Assembly: GCA_943787745.1 (NCBI GenBank)
Contig: CALSNJ010000002.1
Span: 818,125-882,124, forward strand
Direction of reading: 5' to 3'
DNA from: an uncultured Alphaproteobacteria bacterium
Lineage (GTDB): Bacteria; Pseudomonadota; Alphaproteobacteria; UBA6615
DNA length: 64,000 nt
This document shows, one piece after another, positions 37,092 to 45,879 of the stretch. A program made the position numbers and the translations under genes. The notes under the pieces were generated by a model. That model worked only from the letters and a program-made list of their open reading frames with translations. It did no database searches and was not told the DNA's origin. Position 1 is the first letter of the stretch. Each line of letters starts with the position of its first letter.

Positions 37092-37242
37092 CGGCGCAGG
37101 AAAAGTCCTCCGGTCTTCGTTCGAATTGAGACGAAAGGTAAGTGCATTTCTGTCCGCCGTATCCGTTGTCAAAGCTCCTCGCTATACTTCCCCATAAGAG
37201 GCAGCACCTGCTGTGCAGCAAACAAGGAAACGGGGAAAAGCT

Positions 37243-38172
37243 ATGAGTTTACGTGTCGGCATTGTGGGACTTGGCATTATGGGCGGGGCATTTGCCGCCA
37301 ATCTCGTAAAGAACGGTTTCGAAGTCACCGGGTTCGACCCGGTCAAGGCAAAGGTGAATGCCCTGGTGAAGGCTGGCGGCAAAGCAGGCAAGAGCGCAGC
37401 GGATGTCGCCCGAAAATCCGACATGATCCTCACTTCGCTCACATCACCAGCCATCCTTGATGCGGTTGTCACGGGCAAGAACGGTATTCTTGCCGGGGCA
37501 CATAAGGGCCTGATCGTTCTGGAAACCTCGACCCTCGGCATCGATGCCAAAGAAGCCGCCCGCGCGGCGCTCGCGACCAAAGGTGCGATCCTGATGGACA
37601 GCCCGGTCAGCGGTGCAGGAAAACAGGCGGCGACGGGCGAAATCACCGTCATGGTCAGCGGCGCCAAGAAGGACTTCAACAAGGTTAAGCCTGCACTCGA
37701 AGCGTTCTCGATGCTCCAGTATCACGTCGGCCCCTTCGGTGACGGTATGAAGCTGAAAATGCTGATCAATATGCTGATCAGCGTGCACGGCGCAGCATTC
37801 GCCGAAGCGATTACGCTGGCCCGCGCTTCGGGGATCGACCTCGATGTCTTCGGTGAGGTTCTCAAAAAATCTGCCGGCAATTCCCGGGTGATCGAGTATC
37901 GCGGCCCGCTGATGCTGGCCGATGAATACGCCGACCCGAAGGTCAAGACGGCCGACCTGACCGTGATGATCAAGGACAACAACCTGATTGAGGATTACGC
38001 CAAGGGCAACAACGCGCCGGTTCCTGTATTCCAGGCGAGCATGTTCAGCGCCTATGCCGCTCTGGCGCAGGGATATGGTTCCGAAGACCCTGGTGTCGTG
38101 ACCCGTGTCTACGAACAGATGGCCAATATCCCGCGCAAGAAGCGCGCACCGGCCAAGCGCAAGAAAAAGTAA
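37243..38172 (+). CDS. 3-hydroxyisobutyrate-dehydrogenase-family oxidoreductase with basic tail (first of pair)
   Basis: A 309-residue beta-hydroxyacid dehydrogenase. The NAD(P) motif MSLRVGIVGLGIMGGAFAANLVKNGF, the substrate-binding MDSPVSGAGKQAATGEITVMVSG and the catalytic Lys region KMLINMLISVHGAAFAEAI are seen. The C-terminal stretch IPRKKRAPAKRKKK is unusually basic for the family and absent from its paralogue. ATG 37243 is chosen. It overlaps the next gene by TAATG. Substrate unknown, possibly tartronate semialdehyde or a branched hydroxy acid. Confidence 0.82.
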   Translation: MSLRVGIVGLGIMGGAFAANLVKNGFEVTGFDPVKAKVNALVKAGGKAGKSAADVARKSDMILTSLTSPAILDAVVTGKNGILAGAHKGLIVLETSTLGIDAKEAARAALATKGAILMDSPVSGAGKQAATGEITVMVSGAKKDFNKVKPALEAFSMLQYHVGPFGDGMKLKMLINMLISVHGAAFAEAITLARASGIDLDVFGEVLKKSAGNSRVIEYRGPLMLADEYADPKVKTADLTVMIKDNNLIEDYAKGNNAPVPVFQASMFSAYAALAQGYGSEDPGVVTRVYEQMANIPRKKRAPAKRKKK

Positions 38173-39065
38173 TGGCACTCAACACCGGCGTCATCGGGCT
38201 GGGCAATATCGGCGGCGGCGTGGCGAAAAACCTCGCCGCCGCCGGACATATCGTCATTGGCTACGACACAGACCTCTCCCGGATTGGCGAGGCCGGCGCG
38301 CAGGAAGCTGCCGATGCCGCGGAGGTCTCACAACGTGCTGACCTTGTGGTGCTGGCTGTTCCGACACTATCGGCATGGCGCGCTTCGCTTGCCGCGATTA
38401 CAGCGAATGGTCGCCGTGGCCTGATCGTCATCGACCTCTGCACCTTTCCGCTCGCGGAAAAGGAACTCGCCTATGAGGAGCTCGCCCGCGTCGGGATTTA
38501 TCTCCTCGATTGTCCCGTCAGCGGTGCGCGCCCGCAGGCACTGGCAGGCGAACTGGCAATGCTGGTGAGCGGTGACGCCGATGCTTTCGCGCGCGCCCAG
38601 ACCGCCCTGGAATGCTTCTGCAGCAGCGTGACCCATGTGGGCACTTATGGCGTGTCCTCGAAAATCAAATACGTCATCAACCTGATGATTTCAGTCCAGA
38701 ACATGGCCTGCGCCGAAGCCTTCCTTCTGGCGCGCAAAGCGGGCATTGATCTGCAGCAAATGGCCGATGCCGTGATGGACAGCGCGGCCTATTCAAAAGT
38801 GTTTGAGATACGCGCCGAGAAATGGATAAGCGGGAACTACGATGACCCGACAGCCGAACTGGCCATCCAGTTGAAAGATAAAGATATTATCCGAGATTTC
38901 GCTGCCGACGTCGGCAGCCCAACGCCGATGTTCGACGCAGCTATTCCTTACTATATCGCAGCAGGTTCTCAGGGCCGCCAGCAGCAGGATGCGGCCTCTG
39001 TTCTTGCCGTGCTCGAGCACATGGCAGGCATCCCCCGTGATGAGAAACCAGATGGCTCCGGCTAG
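38172..39065 (+). CDS. 3-hydroxyisobutyrate-dehydrogenase-family oxidoreductase (second of pair)
   Basis: A 297-residue paralogue of the 37243 gene: NTGVIGLGNIGGGVAKNLAAAG, LLDCPVSGARPQALAGELAMLVSG and SKIKYVINLMISVQNMACAEAFLLA (catalytic Lys in KYVINL). No basic tail. Coupled by TAATG overlap to the first gene, so the two may be co-translated and act on related or enantiomeric substrates. Confidence 0.82.
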   Translation: MALNTGVIGLGNIGGGVAKNLAAAGHIVIGYDTDLSRIGEAGAQEAADAAEVSQRADLVVLAVPTLSAWRASLAAITANGRRGLIVIDLCTFPLAEKELAYEELARVGIYLLDCPVSGARPQALAGELAMLVSGDADAFARAQTALECFCSSVTHVGTYGVSSKIKYVINLMISVQNMACAEAFLLARKAGIDLQQMADAVMDSAAYSKVFEIRAEKWISGNYDDPTAELAIQLKDKDIIRDFAADVGSPTPMFDAAIPYYIAAGSQGRQQQDAASVLAVLEHMAGIPRDEKPDGSG

Positions 39066-39132
39066 CTCCCAGATTGTGGAATTCCACGCGAGCATCAGCC
39101 ATACTCGACACCTATAACGTGACGAGGAACTG

Positions 39133-39546
39133 ATGCTTTTTCGAAATCTGGGAATGCTTGTCGGAGCGGCCTTCGTATTGGCGGCCTGCACACCGCCTGC
39201 ACGAACACTCGTAACCGTTGCCGAACCCGGGCAACTGGCCGCCGAGACCAAAACCGAGGTCAAGAGCGACCGCAAAGCCACAGAGCCGAAGAACGTCATA
39301 TTGACGCGCGAAGATATAACCGACCGCGCTTATAAAGCGATCGCTGACATCAAGGTCGTTGTACGTCGGCTTTTTCTGCCCGATCCCGACCCGACTCAGG
39401 CGGAAGCCGACCTCATGCTAAAGACAACAGCGGCTGCGCTCGGAGCAGACGCTGTGGTCCTCGTACGTTACGGCAGTTCGGGCATAACGCTCACCACTTG
39501 GGGAACTTTGGAGAGTCAGGGACGTGCCGTCTATTTCACTGAATAA
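39133..39546 (+). CDS. Lipoprotein, unknown
   Basis: A 137-residue protein with a signal peptide and lipobox (VLAAC, acylated Cys near residue 19). The mature part has TREDITDRAYKAIADIKVVVRRLFLPDP and LKTTAAALGADAVVLVRYG followed by GRAVYF, a small alpha/beta layout resembling YbjQ/heavy-metal-binding or DUF4156 domains, which I cannot confirm. It overlaps the next lipoprotein gene by 23 bases. Confidence 0.6.
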   Translation: MLFRNLGMLVGAAFVLAACTPPARTLVTVAEPGQLAAETKTEVKSDRKATEPKNVILTREDITDRAYKAIADIKVVVRRLFLPDPDPTQAEADLMLKTTAAALGADAVVLVRYGSSGITLTTWGTLESQGRAVYFTE

Positions 39547-39931
39547 GCTGAGAGCGCTTTCATGCGGCGTATTGGTCGCCCTCGCCATTTCGGGCTGCGC
39601 ACGTCCCGCGCCTGACCTGCCTCCAGACTATGGCTCTGTTGACTCGAAAACACCGCTTACAGCGGATCAGTTTTCAGCGCAGGACCTCGCATTGTCTTGC
39701 ACCCAGGCCCGGCAGCAGCAGGTTGAGCTTACGGATGAGGCCAGCCGCCTGACCGGAGTGATTGATGACAGCAAGGGATATAACGAAGCGATCGGCATTC
39801 TGGGGGCTTTGTTCATCGTGCCGGCACTGGCTGCCGATCAGAACCCGGATGAGAAACGCCGCCTGGACGAAATCCAGACCCGTTGGGACACCCTGGTTGC
39901 ATTGCGCCGTTACAAATCCTGCACCACCTGA
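39524..39931 (+). CDS. Lipoprotein, unknown
   Basis: A 135-residue GTG-started protein with a signal peptide and lipobox (ISGC near residue 25). The mature part has SAQDLALSCTQARQQQVELTDEASRLTGVI, a helical segment, and a hydrophobic IGILGALFIVPALAADQ stretch, ending RRYKSCTT. It overlaps the preceding lipoprotein gene and is probably co-translated. Function unknown. Confidence 0.55.
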   Translation: MPSISLNKLRALSCGVLVALAISGCARPAPDLPPDYGSVDSKTPLTADQFSAQDLALSCTQARQQQVELTDEASRLTGVIDDSKGYNEAIGILGALFIVPALAADQNPDEKRRLDEIQTRWDTLVALRRYKSCTT

Positions 39932-39949
39932 CTGCGGGCTCCTTCGCAC

Positions 39950-40415
39950 CTATATCCAGCGCCGGACTTGTCGTTTGTAGTCGAGATAAGCTTGTCCAAA
40001 TTTGGCTTCAAGGAACGCCTCTTCGCGCGCGATGACAATGAAGTGGATCACCAACACCGCCGGAACGGTTCCGGCCACGACCCAAACCCTGTCGAAGAAA
40101 AACCGCAAGGCCCACACAGATAAGCGTCATACCCACATAGATCGGGTTACGTGACCAGGTGAACACACCACCGGGCACGATCGTGGTGGTCGGGCGCTCA
40201 TGCAAAGGACTGGTGCCGGCCCGGTAAAGCGTCACGACCGACACAAGAGCCAGCCCCACACCAAGTGCCATCAGAAGAGCGCCCACCGGCTGCTGCAGAG
40301 CCCCGGGAAACACGCGCACGGGAATCAGATAATCGATGCCCAGCCCAAGCAGTATCCCCGCCAGATAGACCAATGGTGGCAGCGGGACGTGTTCCTTGTC
40401 CTCTCCTGCCGCCAT
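39950..40415 (-). pseudogene. Isoprenylcysteine carboxyl methyltransferase family protein, frameshifted
   Basis: A PEMT/ICMT-type membrane methyltransferase. The N-terminal two-thirds (LPPLVYLAGILLGLGIDYLIP; TTTIVPGGVFTWSRNPIYVGMTLICVGLAVF) is in the frame starting at 40415. The 5-base T run on the minus strand (plus-strand AAAAA 40098-40102) appears to contain one extra T; in the other frame the rest reads DRVWVVAGTVPAVLVIHFIVIAREEAFLEAKFGQAYLDYKRQVRRWI, stopping at 39950. That C-terminus, with the conserved EE...Y block, is the family's expected end. Homopolymer location makes an assembly error plausible. Confidence 0.75.
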
Positions 40416-40424
40416 CGCCGTTTC

Positions 40425-41273
40425 CTATTTCGTCATCGCGGCGTGCATGACGCGAACGAAACGTTCGGGATTGAGGAACCCGCCACCCCAGCCTGAATCA
40501 AACTCGGCCGTCGGCTTGGCCGCCACAATATCCTCAACCGTTTTCCCGTCCGCAATAAGCGGCGAGATGCTGCCCCGTGCCTTGGTCAGCATGTCGCGAT
40601 AGGCGATCAGGTCGTCCCGGTCGCCCACAGGGCCATGCCCCGGAATGATGATCGTGTCGGCATCCGCCATGTCCAGCACCGTGTCGATGGCCGCAAACAC
40701 ACCCTCAATCGAGCCGCCGGACTTGGCGTCGATGAACGGATAGAACCCGTTGAAGAACGTGTCGCCCATATGGATCACATTGGCTTCGCGAAAACGGATC
40801 ATCGCATCGCCATCGGTATGAGCCGCTTCGGTGTGGAACACCTCGATGGTCTGACCATTCATGTGAAAGGTCGTTGTGTCGTTGAAGGTGACCACCGGCA
40901 GCGATGCGGCCGGTGCATTGCCGCCAAGAAGACGTTCGCGCACGTTGTCATGGGCGAAAATCAGCACACCCGCTTTGCCGAGGTTTTCGTTCCCGCCGGT
41001 ATGGTCGCGGTGAAAATGCGTGTTCACCAGAAAACGCACCGGCTGGTCCGACACGCTCTTGATCTTGTCAAGGATCGTCTCGGTCGCCGGGGCGAACTGA
41101 TCATCGATCATGAACACACCATCTGCACCGGCCGACACGCCGATATTTCCGCCCTTGCCCTGAATAACGTGGATGCCATCCTTGATAGCAGAAATTTCCT
41201 GTGCGCCTGCGGGAACAGCGACACCAATCAATGCCGCGGCGGCGATCAGAGCCGGTTTCAGTGTCTTGTACAT
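40425..41273 (-). CDS. Exported metallo-beta-lactamase-fold hydrolase
   Basis: A 282-residue protein with a signal peptide (cleavage near AGAQE) and the MBL zinc motif NTHFHRDHTGGNENLG. Further zinc ligands lie in HTEAAHTDGDAMIRF and IIIPGHGPVGD. Closest by layout to periplasmic cyclase/quinoprotein-relay-type MBL proteins, and more distantly to class B beta-lactamases; antibiotic hydrolysis is not implied. ATG at 41273. Divergent from the GST gene, with 147 bases between. Confidence 0.8.
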   Translation of the reverse strand: MYKTLKPALIAAAALIGVAVPAGAQEISAIKDGIHVIQGKGGNIGVSAGADGVFMIDDQFAPATETILDKIKSVSDQPVRFLVNTHFHRDHTGGNENLGKAGVLIFAHDNVRERLLGGNAPAASLPVVTFNDTTTFHMNGQTIEVFHTEAAHTDGDAMIRFREANVIHMGDTFFNGFYPFIDAKSGGSIEGVFAAIDTVLDMADADTIIIPGHGPVGDRDDLIAYRDMLTKARGSISPLIADGKTVEDIVAAKPTAEFDSGWGGGFLNPERFVRVMHAAMTK

Positions 41274-41366
41274 TTCAATCTCCAGCCGGTTGTGTTGCGA
41301 TCAATCTAGTTGCTCGGGTGATACCCAACAATCGAGATTGACCTCACTTCTACGTCAAGAGCTGCT

Positions 41367-41395
41367 TTGACCACGCACCGCCTGCCACCTATGAT
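41367..41395 (+). promoter_or_regulatory. Sigma-70-type promoter TTGACC-17-TATGAT
   Basis: A -35 box TTGACC (41367-41372), a 17-base spacer and a -10 box TATGAT (41390-41395) lie 25 bases before ATG 41421. The ribosome site GAGGGA (41409-41414) is six bases before the ATG. Transcription and translation signals therefore point to the ATG upstream of the in-frame UGA. Confidence 0.6.
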
Positions 41396-41420
41396 CGTGG
41401 CAACAAATGAGGGAATTCCT

Positions 41421-42116
41421 ATGACTGTAAAATACCACCTGATCAGCTCTTTCACCTGACCATGGGTCCAGCGCGCCGTGATCCTCTTGCGTGCCAAGAA
41501 AATTGAGTTCGACGTCACCTACATCAACTTGCTCGACAAGCCGGACTGGTTTCTCGAGATCTCTCCTCATGGGAAAGTTCCGGTTCTCAAGGTGGATGAT
41601 GAAATCCTGTTTGAATCCAACGCGATCGCGGAATACCTCGACGAAGTGGTGCCGCCACGGCTTCACCCCGAAGACCCGCTCGAGCGGGCCAAAAACCGGG
41701 CCTGGACCGATTTCGTGCCAACCTTCGCTGGTGCCATGAGCGCCATCCATTATTCCAAGACCAAGGAAGACATGGAGACCGCGATCGACAATGCGCAGGA
41801 CAAACTAACAAAGGTCGAAGGCGCCCTTGCAGGTCGTGGCAATGACGGCCCGTATTTCAATGGGCCTGATCTGGCTTTGGTGGATGCGGCCTATGCCCCT
41901 TTCCTGCAGCGCTACACCTTCGTCGACAAGGTTCTCAAAAACGATGTGTTGAAGGACTATCCGCTGATCAAGGCATGGTCCGACACATTGCTGTCTGACG
42001 CACGCGTCACAGGCGCTGTTCCCGACAATTTTGGGGACGAGTTTATTGCCGGGATCAAGCGCCGCAAGATGTACGCCGCGCAGTTCTTCGACAATGCCAG
42101 CGCAGCAGCAGAGTAA
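41421..42116 (+). CDS. Glutathione S-transferase-like protein with in-frame UGA at the catalytic Cys (candidate selenoprotein)
   Basis: If the TGA at 41457-41459 is read as residue 13, the product is 231 residues. It starts MTVKYHLISSFT-U-PWVQRAVILLRAKKIEF and continues LLDKPDWFLEISPHGKVPVLKV and LFESNAIAEYLDE, a standard GST N-terminal thioredoxin-like domain, followed by the all-helical domain. In homologues the UGA position is the conserved Cys of a CP(F/W)VQR motif. The ORF track starts only at GTG 41478, which would lack the first strand and active site. A promoter and ribosome site match ATG 41421, and a hairpin follows the UGA. The alternative is a point nonsense mutation. Confidence 0.6.
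41471..41494 (+). promoter_or_regulatory. Bacterial SECIS-like hairpin downstream of UGA
   Basis: GCGCGC (41471-41476) pairs with GCGTGC (41489-41494), one G-U pair, leaving a 12-base loop starting CG. The stem starts 11 bases after the UGA and the loop 17 bases after it, with a G among the first two loop bases. These features fit the general bacterial SECIS model as I know it. The hairpin is inside coding sequence, as bacterial SECIS elements are. Not experimentally supported. Confidence 0.4.
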
Positions 42117-42119
42117 CCG

Positions 42120-42812
42120 TTGAGCAGCAATGGCAATCCCGGTGGATATCGGCCCGACGACCCTCGCTATGGGCTGTCGGGCCAAGCCCTGAAGGATTAC
42201 TACCTTTCGCTTCCCGCGCAGTTCTATGTCCGGAGCCTCTACAAACCCGACGTTCTGCATCTCCGCGAAGGCGCGATGGCAACCCACCTCGCTCATGTGC
42301 GCAGCTATGCCGAACACATCCAGTTTGCGGGTCCGCTGCTTGCCGATGATGGCACAACGCCCATGGGCACCATGGCCATCATCAATCTGACCGATCGCAG
42401 CGCCGCCGAGGCTTATGCAGCCGGGGACGGCTTTGCGAAGGCGGGAATGTTTGAACCACCGCGCATCATCCGCTTCATGAGCAGCAAGCGCCTGACCCAG
42501 GCAGATCGTGAACCAGACCCGCAGCTACAGATGTTCGTCTGCGAATGCATTGATGGCGCCGATGCCGCAGCCTTGCGCAAGAAAAGCGCGGCCGCTCACC
42601 ACACCTATCAGGGTTCAATCATCGACAAATACATCGCCCACGGTCCATTGCGCAGCGATGACGGTGTCGACCTTCTGGGCAGCCTGTTTGTCCTTGAAGT
42701 CGCGGACCGCGCCGCCGCCGAAGAACTTGTCGCCAGCGAACCCATGACAGCGGCCGGTGTATTCAGTGAAATCAACATCTATCGCTGGCGCTACGGGAAA
42801 TCCCTCGCCTAG
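42120..42812 (+). CDS. Tandem YCII-domain protein
   Basis: A 230-residue protein with two YciI-like domains: the first includes VRSLYKPDVLHLREGAMATHLAHVRSYAEHIQFAGPLLADDG, the second MFVCECIDGADAAALRKKSAAAHHTYQGSIIDKYIAHGPLRSDDG. Each repeats the H...GP(L) block and ends with a DR-(S/A)-AAE segment. Start is TTG 42120, three bases after the GST stop. YCII domains are small dimeric folds of uncertain enzymatic role; here the dimer appears fused. Probably co-transcribed with the GST gene and the following reductase. Confidence 0.72.
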   Translation: MSSNGNPGGYRPDDPRYGLSGQALKDYYLSLPAQFYVRSLYKPDVLHLREGAMATHLAHVRSYAEHIQFAGPLLADDGTTPMGTMAIINLTDRSAAEAYAAGDGFAKAGMFEPPRIIRFMSSKRLTQADREPDPQLQMFVCECIDGADAAALRKKSAAAHHTYQGSIIDKYIAHGPLRSDDGVDLLGSLFVLEVADRAAAEELVASEPMTAAGVFSEINIYRWRYGKSLA

Positions 42813-42825
42813 GCAGGAGGTCCGC

Positions 42826-43854
42826 ATGGACAAGAAGATCGCCATCCTCGGATCCGGTGCCAATGGCACGGTCATCGGGGTCGACCTCATACGTGCCGGC
42901 CTCGACGTTAAACTGATCGACCAGTGGCCAGCCCATGTGGAAGCCCTGCGCAGCAATGGTGCGGTCATCAACCTGCCCGACGAAACCATCACGCAGGATG
43001 TGGATGCCTATCATCTGTGCGATGTCGCGACCTTCACCGAACCCTTCGACGTCGTTCTCATGCTGTTCAAGGCCTACGATACCCGATGGGCGGCACAACT
43101 TATTGAGCCCTATCTTGCCGAAGACGGCATCATCGTCGGCGTTCAGAACGGCATGAGCTACGACACACTGGCAGATGTCGTCGGTGTCGAACGCGCGATG
43201 GCCTGCGTTATCGAGGTGGCCTCGGAACTCCACAACCCGGGCATCATCAAACGCTCCTCACCGCGCGATGGTGGTTCATGGTTCGCCGTTGGGAGCGCCC
43301 ACCCCGCAACGGCTGGCCGGGAAGCCGAAATTGCAGAAATTCTCGGCCATGCCGGAGAAGTAGAGATTTCCGATGATATTCTCGCGGCGAAATGGATGAA
43401 GTTGGTCAGCAACACGATGACCCTCGCAACGACCGCATTGGTCGGCCTGCCGATCGACGAGGCCGAACAGATGCCGGGCATGCGGGAAATCATGCTCAAG
43501 GCCGGTGCCGAAGCGCTGGCGGCAGGCGAACTGCGCGGTCACGCGATCAAACCAATTTATGGCCTAAAGCCCGAGGATATGGAGAACACCAACCAGCTCC
43601 TCCAATTGCTGCACGAAAAACTGCTGTCCTTCACCCGGCCCGATACGCGCACCACGGTTCTGATGGATCACATGAAGGGTCGTCAGAGCGAAACCAATGA
43701 TGTGAACGGATTGGTTGCAGAAACGCTCACAAGCGCTGGCCAAATGGCACCGGCGAATGCAGCGATTGTGGCCCTGACTGAGCAGGTCAAACGCGGTGAA
43801 CTGGAACCCGATCCATCCAATCTCGCATTGATCCGGAATATGGTCGCGACCTGA
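42826..43854 (+). CDS. 2-dehydropantoate 2-reductase-family (PanE/ApbA-like) oxidoreductase
   Basis: A 342-residue NADP-dependent reductase. The nucleotide motif is KKIAILGSGANGTVIGVDLIRAG, with LMLFKAYDTRWAAQLIEPYL and GVQNGMSYDTLADVVG in the N-terminal domain; the C-terminal ApbA_C domain has the catalytic Lys in ILAAKWMKLVSNTMTLATTALVG. ATG 42826 follows AGGAGG at six bases. No other pantothenate gene is near, so a role on another 2-oxo acid is as likely as ketopantoate reduction. Confidence 0.78.
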   Translation: MDKKIAILGSGANGTVIGVDLIRAGLDVKLIDQWPAHVEALRSNGAVINLPDETITQDVDAYHLCDVATFTEPFDVVLMLFKAYDTRWAAQLIEPYLAEDGIIVGVQNGMSYDTLADVVGVERAMACVIEVASELHNPGIIKRSSPRDGGSWFAVGSAHPATAGREAEIAEILGHAGEVEISDDILAAKWMKLVSNTMTLATTALVGLPIDEAEQMPGMREIMLKAGAEALAAGELRGHAIKPIYGLKPEDMENTNQLLQLLHEKLLSFTRPDTRTTVLMDHMKGRQSETNDVNGLVAETLTSAGQMAPANAAIVALTEQVKRGELEPDPSNLALIRNMVAT

Positions 43855-43867
43855 GACAGCCCTCCGG

Positions 43868-44722
43868 TCAGGCGAATTCGGTGCGCCCACGCATTGCAAA
43901 CATACCCTCACCATTGGCGACCCAGACATCAACAGCATCCTCGCCATCGGGATCAACGTTTACGGTGAACGTCTCTGTATCCATGACCGGTCGCATGCCC
44001 CGGAATTCGAAGCGCGACACGGACCGATCGGGCAGTGAACCTGCGGCCATCCCCACCATCATCGTCGCGAGCAGCGGCCCGTGCACGACAAGGCCGTCAT
44101 AGCCTTCGACATCCCGGGCGTAGTCCCGATCATAGTGGATCCGATGGCCATTAAAGGTCAGCGCGGAATATCGAAACAAGAGCGTAGGATCGGGATCGAC
44201 CGTCTCGACCCATTGTGCACCTTCGGGCGCTGGCTCTCCCGGCCTGGCAGACGCGCCCTTGCCCGTATCCTCTCGATAGACAATGTCGTGTTCATCGATG
44301 ACAGCCAATCCGTCGGAACCCGACAGTTCGTGGCGGACGGTGACAAACACCAGTTTGCCCGACCGACCGGACTTTTCGGCAACCTTTTCGATAGTCGAAA
44401 CCCGGGTTGCAGGCTCACCCAGACCGAGTGTGCCGGGGAACGTCACACGACTGCCCGCCCACATCCGACGCGCCTGTCCAACCGGCGGCATGAACCCGCC
44501 GACGGCCGGATGCCCATCGCGTCCCAATTCGGATCGCGGTGCGATATCCCAGAAGTACAACCAATGCCAAAGTGGTGGCAGAGCATCACCGTCCGAAAGT
44601 CGGTCGCCTGAAAGGTTCAACGCGGCCTGAAGCGCCACGCAGCGTTCCGACTGGATGACATCACGACGCTCTTCGCTTCGCCCTACCCATGCCTGAAGGT
44701 CCGGACTGTCTTCATCGCCCAT
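43868..44722 (-). CDS. FAS1-like/MaoC-type dehydratase, mesaconyl-C4-CoA hydratase (Meh)-like
   Basis: A 284-residue double-hotdog hydratase. The N-terminal half has LPPLWHWLYFWDIAPRSELGRDGHP and GGFMPPV...RRMWAGSRVTF; the C-terminal hotdog has the catalytic HYDRDYARDVEGYDGLVVHGPLLATMMV (Asp/His pair). This layout matches Chloroflexus mesaconyl-C4-CoA hydratase, which makes citramalyl-CoA, as I remember it; itaconyl-CoA hydratases are close relatives. With mct at 8 kb it would convert mesaconyl-C4-CoA. ATG 44722 follows GAGGAGAGA. It lies downstream of a Gfo/Idh gene. Confidence 0.72.
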   Translation of the reverse strand: MGDEDSPDLQAWVGRSEERRDVIQSERCVALQAALNLSGDRLSDGDALPPLWHWLYFWDIAPRSELGRDGHPAVGGFMPPVGQARRMWAGSRVTFPGTLGLGEPATRVSTIEKVAEKSGRSGKLVFVTVRHELSGSDGLAVIDEHDIVYREDTGKGASARPGEPAPEGAQWVETVDPDPTLLFRYSALTFNGHRIHYDRDYARDVEGYDGLVVHGPLLATMMVGMAAGSLPDRSVSRFEFRGMRPVMDTETFTVNVDPDGEDAVDVWVANGEGMFAMRGRTEFA

Positions 44723-44742
44723 TGCTGTCTCTCCTCAAAGGG

Positions 44743-45879
44743 TCAGGCTTCGAGCCGTTCCATCAATTCATCGGGAGAAATCGGCAGTTCAATTTCCCGC
44801 TTTTCCTTGGCCGACAGATCCATCGCCATGGTGAGCATCAAATTGCGGTGGCCTTCGGCGGCTGTGGCGTGTGGTGTCGCCTTCTTGTTGTAGATGCGCT
44901 GAAACCAGTTGTTGGTTTCCTCACGCATGGGCCCCCAGAGTTCATCGGCATAGACATCCCCCGGCGGGAAGCTTGTCAGAAAGTCGACATGACGAACCGC
45001 TTCGAGGTTCAGGCCATCCGGGTTGTAGGCGGGACCTTGCGGATTGTGGTCGGACGCCAAAATCACATCGCGATGGGTATCTTCAATATCGATCACCCCT
45101 TCGGTGCCGACAATACCGATCTCCAGCCCGTAGACGGCACCCGGCCAGACCTTCGGCAGTGCCCAGCAGATATTCATGGAGAACATCCCGCCATCTTCCA
45201 TCTGGAACAGCCCAAAGGTCGCGTCCTTTACACCAAGGTCGGTGAGGATTTTCTCGGTTGAACGGGCGTAGACAGAAACAGGCTTGGCCGCGTCCCCCAT
45301 CAGCCACATGGACATATCCAGACTATGAGTGCCCGAAACAACCATCGGCGACAGGAAACGACGATCCTGGGTCAGCCGGGTTTCGCCCGTGGGTGCCATA
45401 CGGTTCATGAACGCGCGCACTGTCGCCGCGGTGAACTCACCGATCTGTCCGCTTTCGATCCGCTGCTTCACAACAAGGAAACGACGACGGAAGCGCTGCG
45501 TGTACCCAACAACGGCATCGACACCAGCGGCTTCGATCGCGGCCAGCACCTGAGCGGACTCTCGAGCATCCGTGGCCAGCGGCTTTTCAATGAACAGCAT
45601 ATGGCCGTGTTCGACGGCGGCCAGGGTCGGCTCGACATGTGCCCAGGTCGAGGTCGCGATAATCACCGCATCGACTTCGGGCCGTGCCACCAATTCACGG
45701 AAATCATCTGTGTAGAAATCGGCATCAATGTCGTCGCGCAGTTGGTGCCCGACTTTCTCGTTTACATCGCTCAGGCCAATCCAGCCGATACCGGGGAAAT
45801 CCTTCGCCAGGGTCGCGCGCATCCGGCCAACCACACCGCATCCGATTACGGCCAATCCGATCTGCTTCTTGTCCGACAT
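44743..45879 (-). CDS. Gfo/Idh/MocA family oxidoreductase
   Basis: A 378-residue NAD(P)-dependent dehydrogenase: IGLAVIGCGVVGRMRATLAKDF, EKP motif in HMLFIEKPLATDARESAQVL, and VVGYTQRFRRRFLVVKQRI. The substrate domain has VVSGTHSLDMSMWLMGDAAKP. A GTTCTAGAAC palindrome begins 46-47 bases upstream, matching the 37035 gene. It precedes the hydratase gene by 20 bases and is probably in one transcript with it. Substrate unknown. Confidence 0.83.
   Translation of the reverse strand: MSDKKQIGLAVIGCGVVGRMRATLAKDFPGIGWIGLSDVNEKVGHQLRDDIDADFYTDDFRELVARPEVDAVIIATSTWAHVEPTLAAVEHGHMLFIEKPLATDARESAQVLAAIEAAGVDAVVGYTQRFRRRFLVVKQRIESGQIGEFTAATVRAFMNRMAPTGETRLTQDRRFLSPMVVSGTHSLDMSMWLMGDAAKPVSVYARSTEKILTDLGVKDATFGLFQMEDGGMFSMNICWALPKVWPGAVYGLEIGIVGTEGVIDIEDTHRDVILASDHNPQGPAYNPDGLNLEAVRHVDFLTSFPPGDVYADELWGPMREETNNWFQRIYNKKATPHATAAEGHRNLMLTMAMDLSAKEKREIELPISPDELMERLEA

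Follow-up and report, generated by a model that had tools for sequence, protein, structure and literature searches.

A probable selenocysteine-containing glutathione S-transferase of omega-like type in a marine-type alphaproteobacterium

The locus lies in a window of 64,000 nucleotides (the whole stretch of DNA that was analysed) from an uncultured, marine-type alphaproteobacterium, and comprises a glutathione S-transferase (GST) gene with an in-frame TGA near its 5' end (Table 1). The frame opens with an ATG, runs for 12 codons to the TGA and is then open to a TAA at 42114-42116. Translation of the TGA as selenocysteine (Sec, U) yields the one continuous GST of 231 amino acids that the sequence-only reading had described, and Pfam identifies in this read-through product GST_N_2 (PF13409, 2.2e-19, from residue 12) and GST_C_2 (1.3e-8). 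The proposed ribosome site, GAGGGA, is present and has purine-rich counterparts at the same position in most orthologues. The proposed promoter is also present, but at chance level (one match found, 0.6 expected). Taken on this single sequence alone, a Sec-containing GST is plausible, not proven.

The commonest and most persistent neighbour is the gene with two YCII domains, which adjoins the GST in 14 UGA loci; the divergent metallo-beta-lactamase-fold hydrolase adjoins it in 6 loci, all from the closest relatives. The surrounding cluster (37213-45879) contains two 3-hydroxyisobutyrate-type dehydrogenases, the GST, the YCII gene, an ApbA reductase, a FAS1-type dehydratase domain and a Gfo/Idh protein. 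It is common to close relatives only, with the divergent hydrolase present in some of them.

Table 1. Features of the GST locus and Sec-related genes elsewhere in the source genome (window positions unless a contig is given).
Feature	Position	Strand	Remarks
Candidate Sec-GST coding sequence	41421..42116	+	231 aa with TGA translated as U; Sec is residue 13 (S-F-T-U-P-W-V-Q-R)
Putative Sec-UGA codon	41457..41459	+	Position of the catalytic Cys, equivalent to GSTO1 Cys32; from orthologue codons and omega GST alignment
Shine-Dalgarno-like GAGGGA	41409..41414	+	6 nt 5' of ATG 41421
Sigma-70-like promoter match TTGACC-17-TATGAT	41367..41395	+	Weak
Predicted bacterial SECIS hairpin GCGCGC-(CGTGATCCTCTT)-GCGTGC	41471..41494	+	Loop begins 17 nt past the UGA
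Putative SECIS core, codons 17-20 (CAG CGC GCC GTG)	41469..41480	+	Synonymous constraint in UGA orthologues only
Two-YCII-domain gene	42120..42812	+	PF03795; TTG start as listed; 3 nt past the GST stop
Metallo-beta-lactamase-fold hydrolase, divergent	40425..41273	-	PF00753
selD	C1:301605-302513		295 bits, over curated cut-off
tRNA-Sec (selC)	C1:303811-303902		Anticodon TCA; ARAGORN tRNA-SeC(tca)
selB	C1:313946-315817		458 bits, over curated cut-off
selA	C1:315853-317196		582 bits, over curated cut-off
Prx-like UGA genes (L122, L123, L124, L126)	C2:1350677-1351117, C1:309145-309510, C5:214546-214920, C5:215149-215544		WUPYC or WUPTC
SelW-like UGA gene (L119)	C1:264318-264518		CKIU

The source genome (3.27 Mb, 7 contigs, 98% complete) contains the four genes that the sequence-only reading had proposed to look for, selA, selB, selC and selD, all on contig C1, a different contig from that of the window, and all over curated cut-offs. 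A score for RF01852 is not specific by itself, since the Caulobacter and Thermus controls pass the cut-off too, and the identification of the tRNA-Sec therefore leans as well on its recognition by ARAGORN. The selD gene forms part of a 782-aa open reading frame (C1:301494-303842; L114:2495-4843) in which an apparent oxidoreductase domain precedes the SelD part, and selC overlaps the 5' end of this over-extended frame, an overlap that suggests joint transcription. At least five further redox genes with an in-frame UGA were identified, four Prx-like (two in tandem on C5 and one within the sel locus) and one SelW-like. Their UGA codons fall at known Sec positions (CKIU and WUPxC), and the predicted Sec machinery of this genome is thus in use. 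Formate dehydrogenase was considered as a further selenoprotein and rejected, no UGA being found within its matches; the FdhA-like gene (C5:263650-265704; L115, L118) was matched as three separate pieces, which suggests frameshifts or assembly indels.

Across the class, 385 evenly drawn genomes were sampled, 12 with a UGA-GST and 373 others. The selB gene was identified in 11 of the former and 43 of the latter (Fisher p ~2e-9, a value that overstates independence because the phylogenetically independent pairs of Sec and selB number only 2-3 and have no power). The sole UGA-GST genome of this sample without selB is only 77% complete. The five Cys orthologues of the sample are likewise found in selB genomes, and these counts together indicate that the UGA form almost requires a capacity for Sec, which in turn does not enforce that form. 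Neither selA, selB nor tRNA-Sec was found in UGA-GST genomes L044 and L098 (the latter 77% complete), perhaps through incompleteness of these metagenome-assembled genomes.

The orthologue set comprises 54 sequences, that of the window included, with 47-100% identity; it was taken from two genome collections, and a few loci are duplicates, from one genome reached via both. Codon 13 is TGA in 39 of them, TGC or TGT in the other 15 and no other codon in any, and the distant GST homologues that cover this codon have Cys there. The exchange of UGA and Cys at residue 13, suggested beforehand as a check, is therefore present in close and distant homologues alike. Dozens of species, at 54-84% identity, share the in-frame TGA, and S9, residue 13, P14 and R18 are invariant among 44 homologues.

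The predicted SECIS hairpin has a 6-bp stem and a 12-nt loop, with G at loop position 2 and U at position 3. Stem, loop and early G are thus as the sequence-only reading had them, but the hairpin is a weak argument by itself because its folding energy in the window sequence is unremarkable (z = 0.04). Among 35 distinct UGA orthologues 96% of the stem cells remain paired and no compensatory change was identified in the stem, since protein and RNA constraints overlap there; the exact structure is accordingly supported and not proven. Covariation was replaced by a test of synonymous constraint in 4-codon windows, with near-duplicates removed. In the UGA orthologues, codons 17-20, which correspond to the 5' arm of the hairpin and the loop start CGUGAU, have a synonymous identity of 0.88 and rank first of 210 windows (mean 0.46, SD 0.09), whereas in the Cys orthologues the same codons have 0.42 and rank 138 of 191. 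A constraint limited to the Sec forms is the appearance that an mRNA signal (SECIS) needed by those forms only would have. The published bacterial SECIS model places a hairpin 3' of the UGA with a G as first or second base of the loop, a spacing of 16-37 nt and a loop of 3-9 nt; the G at position 2, the U third, the 17-nt spacing and the 6-bp stem fit it, while the 12-nt loop exceeds it. For relatives L100, L103 and L104 a GGGC/GCCC stem with a 7-nt loop, CGUGAUU, can be fitted by eye from the alignment. An Rfam scan of the window gave no match. The hairpin is, on these comparisons, a putative SECIS element, in favour of whose function the synonymous constraint speaks.

Four other explanations of the TGA were weighed. 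The first takes it as a real stop, with a working protein that begins downstream and is missing the active site. Such a frame exists (from GTG 41478, 212 aa) and is probably the one that automatic annotation would choose, but the product would be without strand 1 and without the nucleophile. Moreover, residues 4-12 evolve as coding sequence: variation among orthologues peaks at third codon positions (0.46, against 0.15 and 0.10), and the short stretch 5' of the UGA is for this reason taken as translated. The GTG itself belongs to a run of four adjacent codons, all of them frozen, which fits an RNA signal better than a start codon alone, and a downstream start is very unlikely. The second is an error of sequencing or assembly, an ordinary Cys-GST whose true codon is TGC or TGT, a concern already raised by the sequence-only reading. 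There are signs of frameshift elsewhere in the genome, the FdhA-like gene among them, but the same TGA is found in 38 other orthologue loci (a few of them duplicates) from independently assembled genomes, and codons 17-20 are constrained in the TGA forms only. This explanation is extremely unlikely, and the recurrence in other genomes makes resequencing unnecessary. Just as improbable is the decoding of UGA as Cys or Trp by an unusual tRNA, for which no support was found and against which stand a complete Sec machinery and other UGA genes with their UGA at known Sec motifs. Finally, the stop lies close to the 5' end, as a nonsense mutation at codon 13 of a pseudogene could, but the 231 codons are otherwise intact, protein-level conservation is evident on either side of the UGA and the stop persists over dozens of species, leaving this reading a negligible probability; it is, like sequencing error, effectively excluded by the comparison of orthologues.

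The case for Sec is strong because of conservation, namely the TGA/Cys alternation at one codon and the constraint of codons 17-20 in UGA forms only. Comparative genomics shows predicted Sec decoding in this genome, exchange of UGA and Cys, an RNA constraint restricted to Sec forms and a modelled omega-like fold, and it supports the selenoprotein proposed by the sequence-only reading through the sel genes, the UGA/Cys pairs and the recurrence of the TGA. The product is very probably a genuine selenoprotein, namely an omega-like GST of the Cys type with Sec, directed by the putative SECIS, in the place of the catalytic Cys.

The GST tree was built with the Sec codon left out and rooted on Cys outgroups. 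The UGA forms constitute one large clade with two groups of Cys forms inside it (L031, L032, L033, L034, L035, L038, L039 and L050), and the Sec/Cys label requires three changes. Several basal forks are without resolution, and gain and loss are indistinguishable from the tree itself. A single clade of all UGA forms is rejected (AU p = 0.02), and between one and two Sec-to-Cys reversions neither is rejected (p = 0.11). With the Cys outgroup, a single gain of Sec followed by loss would be the best fit, and the tree thus favours at least one reversion. Neither selA nor selB was found in the nested Cys group of six rows, where one borderline tRNA-Sec match was obtained; the group of two rows keeps at least part of the Sec machinery, and the selB of the L050 genome has an internal TAG. 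Evenly balanced is a fuller proposal, in which the Sec-GST clade had one origin from a Cys-GST, underwent at least one reversion to Cys in the lineage without selA and selB, and may have a larger-loop SECIS in one sub-clade. A 2026 review (PMC13188914) regards the change from Sec to Cys in bacteria as a rare event, with FdhA and SelD as the main documented cases, and the GST reversion is for this reason a modest new lead; if true, it extends the documented cases past these two proteins.

The AlphaFold2 model (pLDDT 95.5, pTM 0.91) places residue 13 immediately N-terminal to helix 1. By sequence, the closest solved structures include omega-class GSTs, and by fold these are the top matches, with human GSTO1 first (TM 0.78, 26% identity); its Cys32 aligns with residue 13, in agreement with the earlier placement of the UGA at the catalytic Cys. 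Omega GSTs (GSTO1/GSTO2 and the insect pyrimidodiazepine synthase) have the motif CP[FWY]xxR at the N-end of helix 1 and a two-domain fold, both shared with the window protein, whose motif is U/C-P-W-V-Q-R; motif and fold are common also to other Cys-GSTs (lambda, DHAR and Leishmania TDR1). The window protein differs from all of these in its predicted Sec in place of Cys, at about 25-28% identity. It is called omega-like and not omega because the N-terminal extension of the omega class (about 20 residues) is absent, the nucleophile being residue 13 and not 32.

Cys-GSTs carry out deglutathionylation instead of conjugation (PMC4138524). The proposal for Sec13, made by analogy, is that it serves as nucleophile in an enzyme that depends on glutathione and is either a reductase or a thioltransferase. 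At the UGA, the hairpin with its CGUGAU loop start would position SelB carrying Sec-tRNA-Sec, and the Sec so delivered would be inserted in place of termination. The selenolate of Sec13, at the N-end of helix 1, would then probably serve as the nucleophile; the reaction, dependent on glutathione, would be a thiol transfer or a reductive deglutathionylation, and its substrate a small metabolite or a protein. A Se-S-glutathione intermediate would arise, and a second GSH would resolve it with release of GSSG, the course followed by the omega class and the other Cys-GSTs. Both the chemistry and the type of substrate are predictions from these relatives.

Sec and Cys orthologues are available as a matched set, some of the Cys forms lying within the Sec clade, and what selenium contributes to a GST can thus be tested directly. 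Gene callers are likely to shorten genes of this kind or to label them defective, and marine proteobacteria therefore probably have more members of the family than are annotated.

The family itself is already listed in the literature. The Sargasso Sea study, the first to report 15 selenoprotein families, had 'Glutathione S-transferase' among them, with 4 sequences (Zhang et al. 2005, PMC1088965), and the GOS study of 2008 again included it, with 12 sequences (PMC2398784). Reviews of 2022 and 2026 (PMC9312934, PMC13188914) name it without characterisation in the sections that deal with it, and its biochemistry has apparently never been studied. The window locus is a new and unusually well-documented member of this family, and a solid genome-backed case of a selenoprotein that the cited accounts list and leave uncharacterised. 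According to the family description, on which the match rests, it shares with the GST-like family of Zhang et al. a COG0625/PF13409 GST, Sec in place of the Cys of homologues, the lack of a UxxC motif, an origin in marine bacteria and a bacterial SECIS, putative in the window locus; the listed reference proteins are PPR62222.1 and MEK9676863.1. What the present locus adds is modest: the core of the SECIS is defined, the protein is assigned as omega-like, and the tree speaks for one or more reversions of Sec to Cys. The passages cited here on the family contain neither the SECIS core of this sub-clade nor the tree of Sec and Cys forms. A recombinant Sec-GST has also been made in E. coli (Jiang et al. 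2004, as cited in PMC10778597). It has, as predicted for the window protein, Sec in a GST and a SECIS placed 3' of the UGA, but it is an engineered protein, whereas the Sec-GST of the window would be a natural one.
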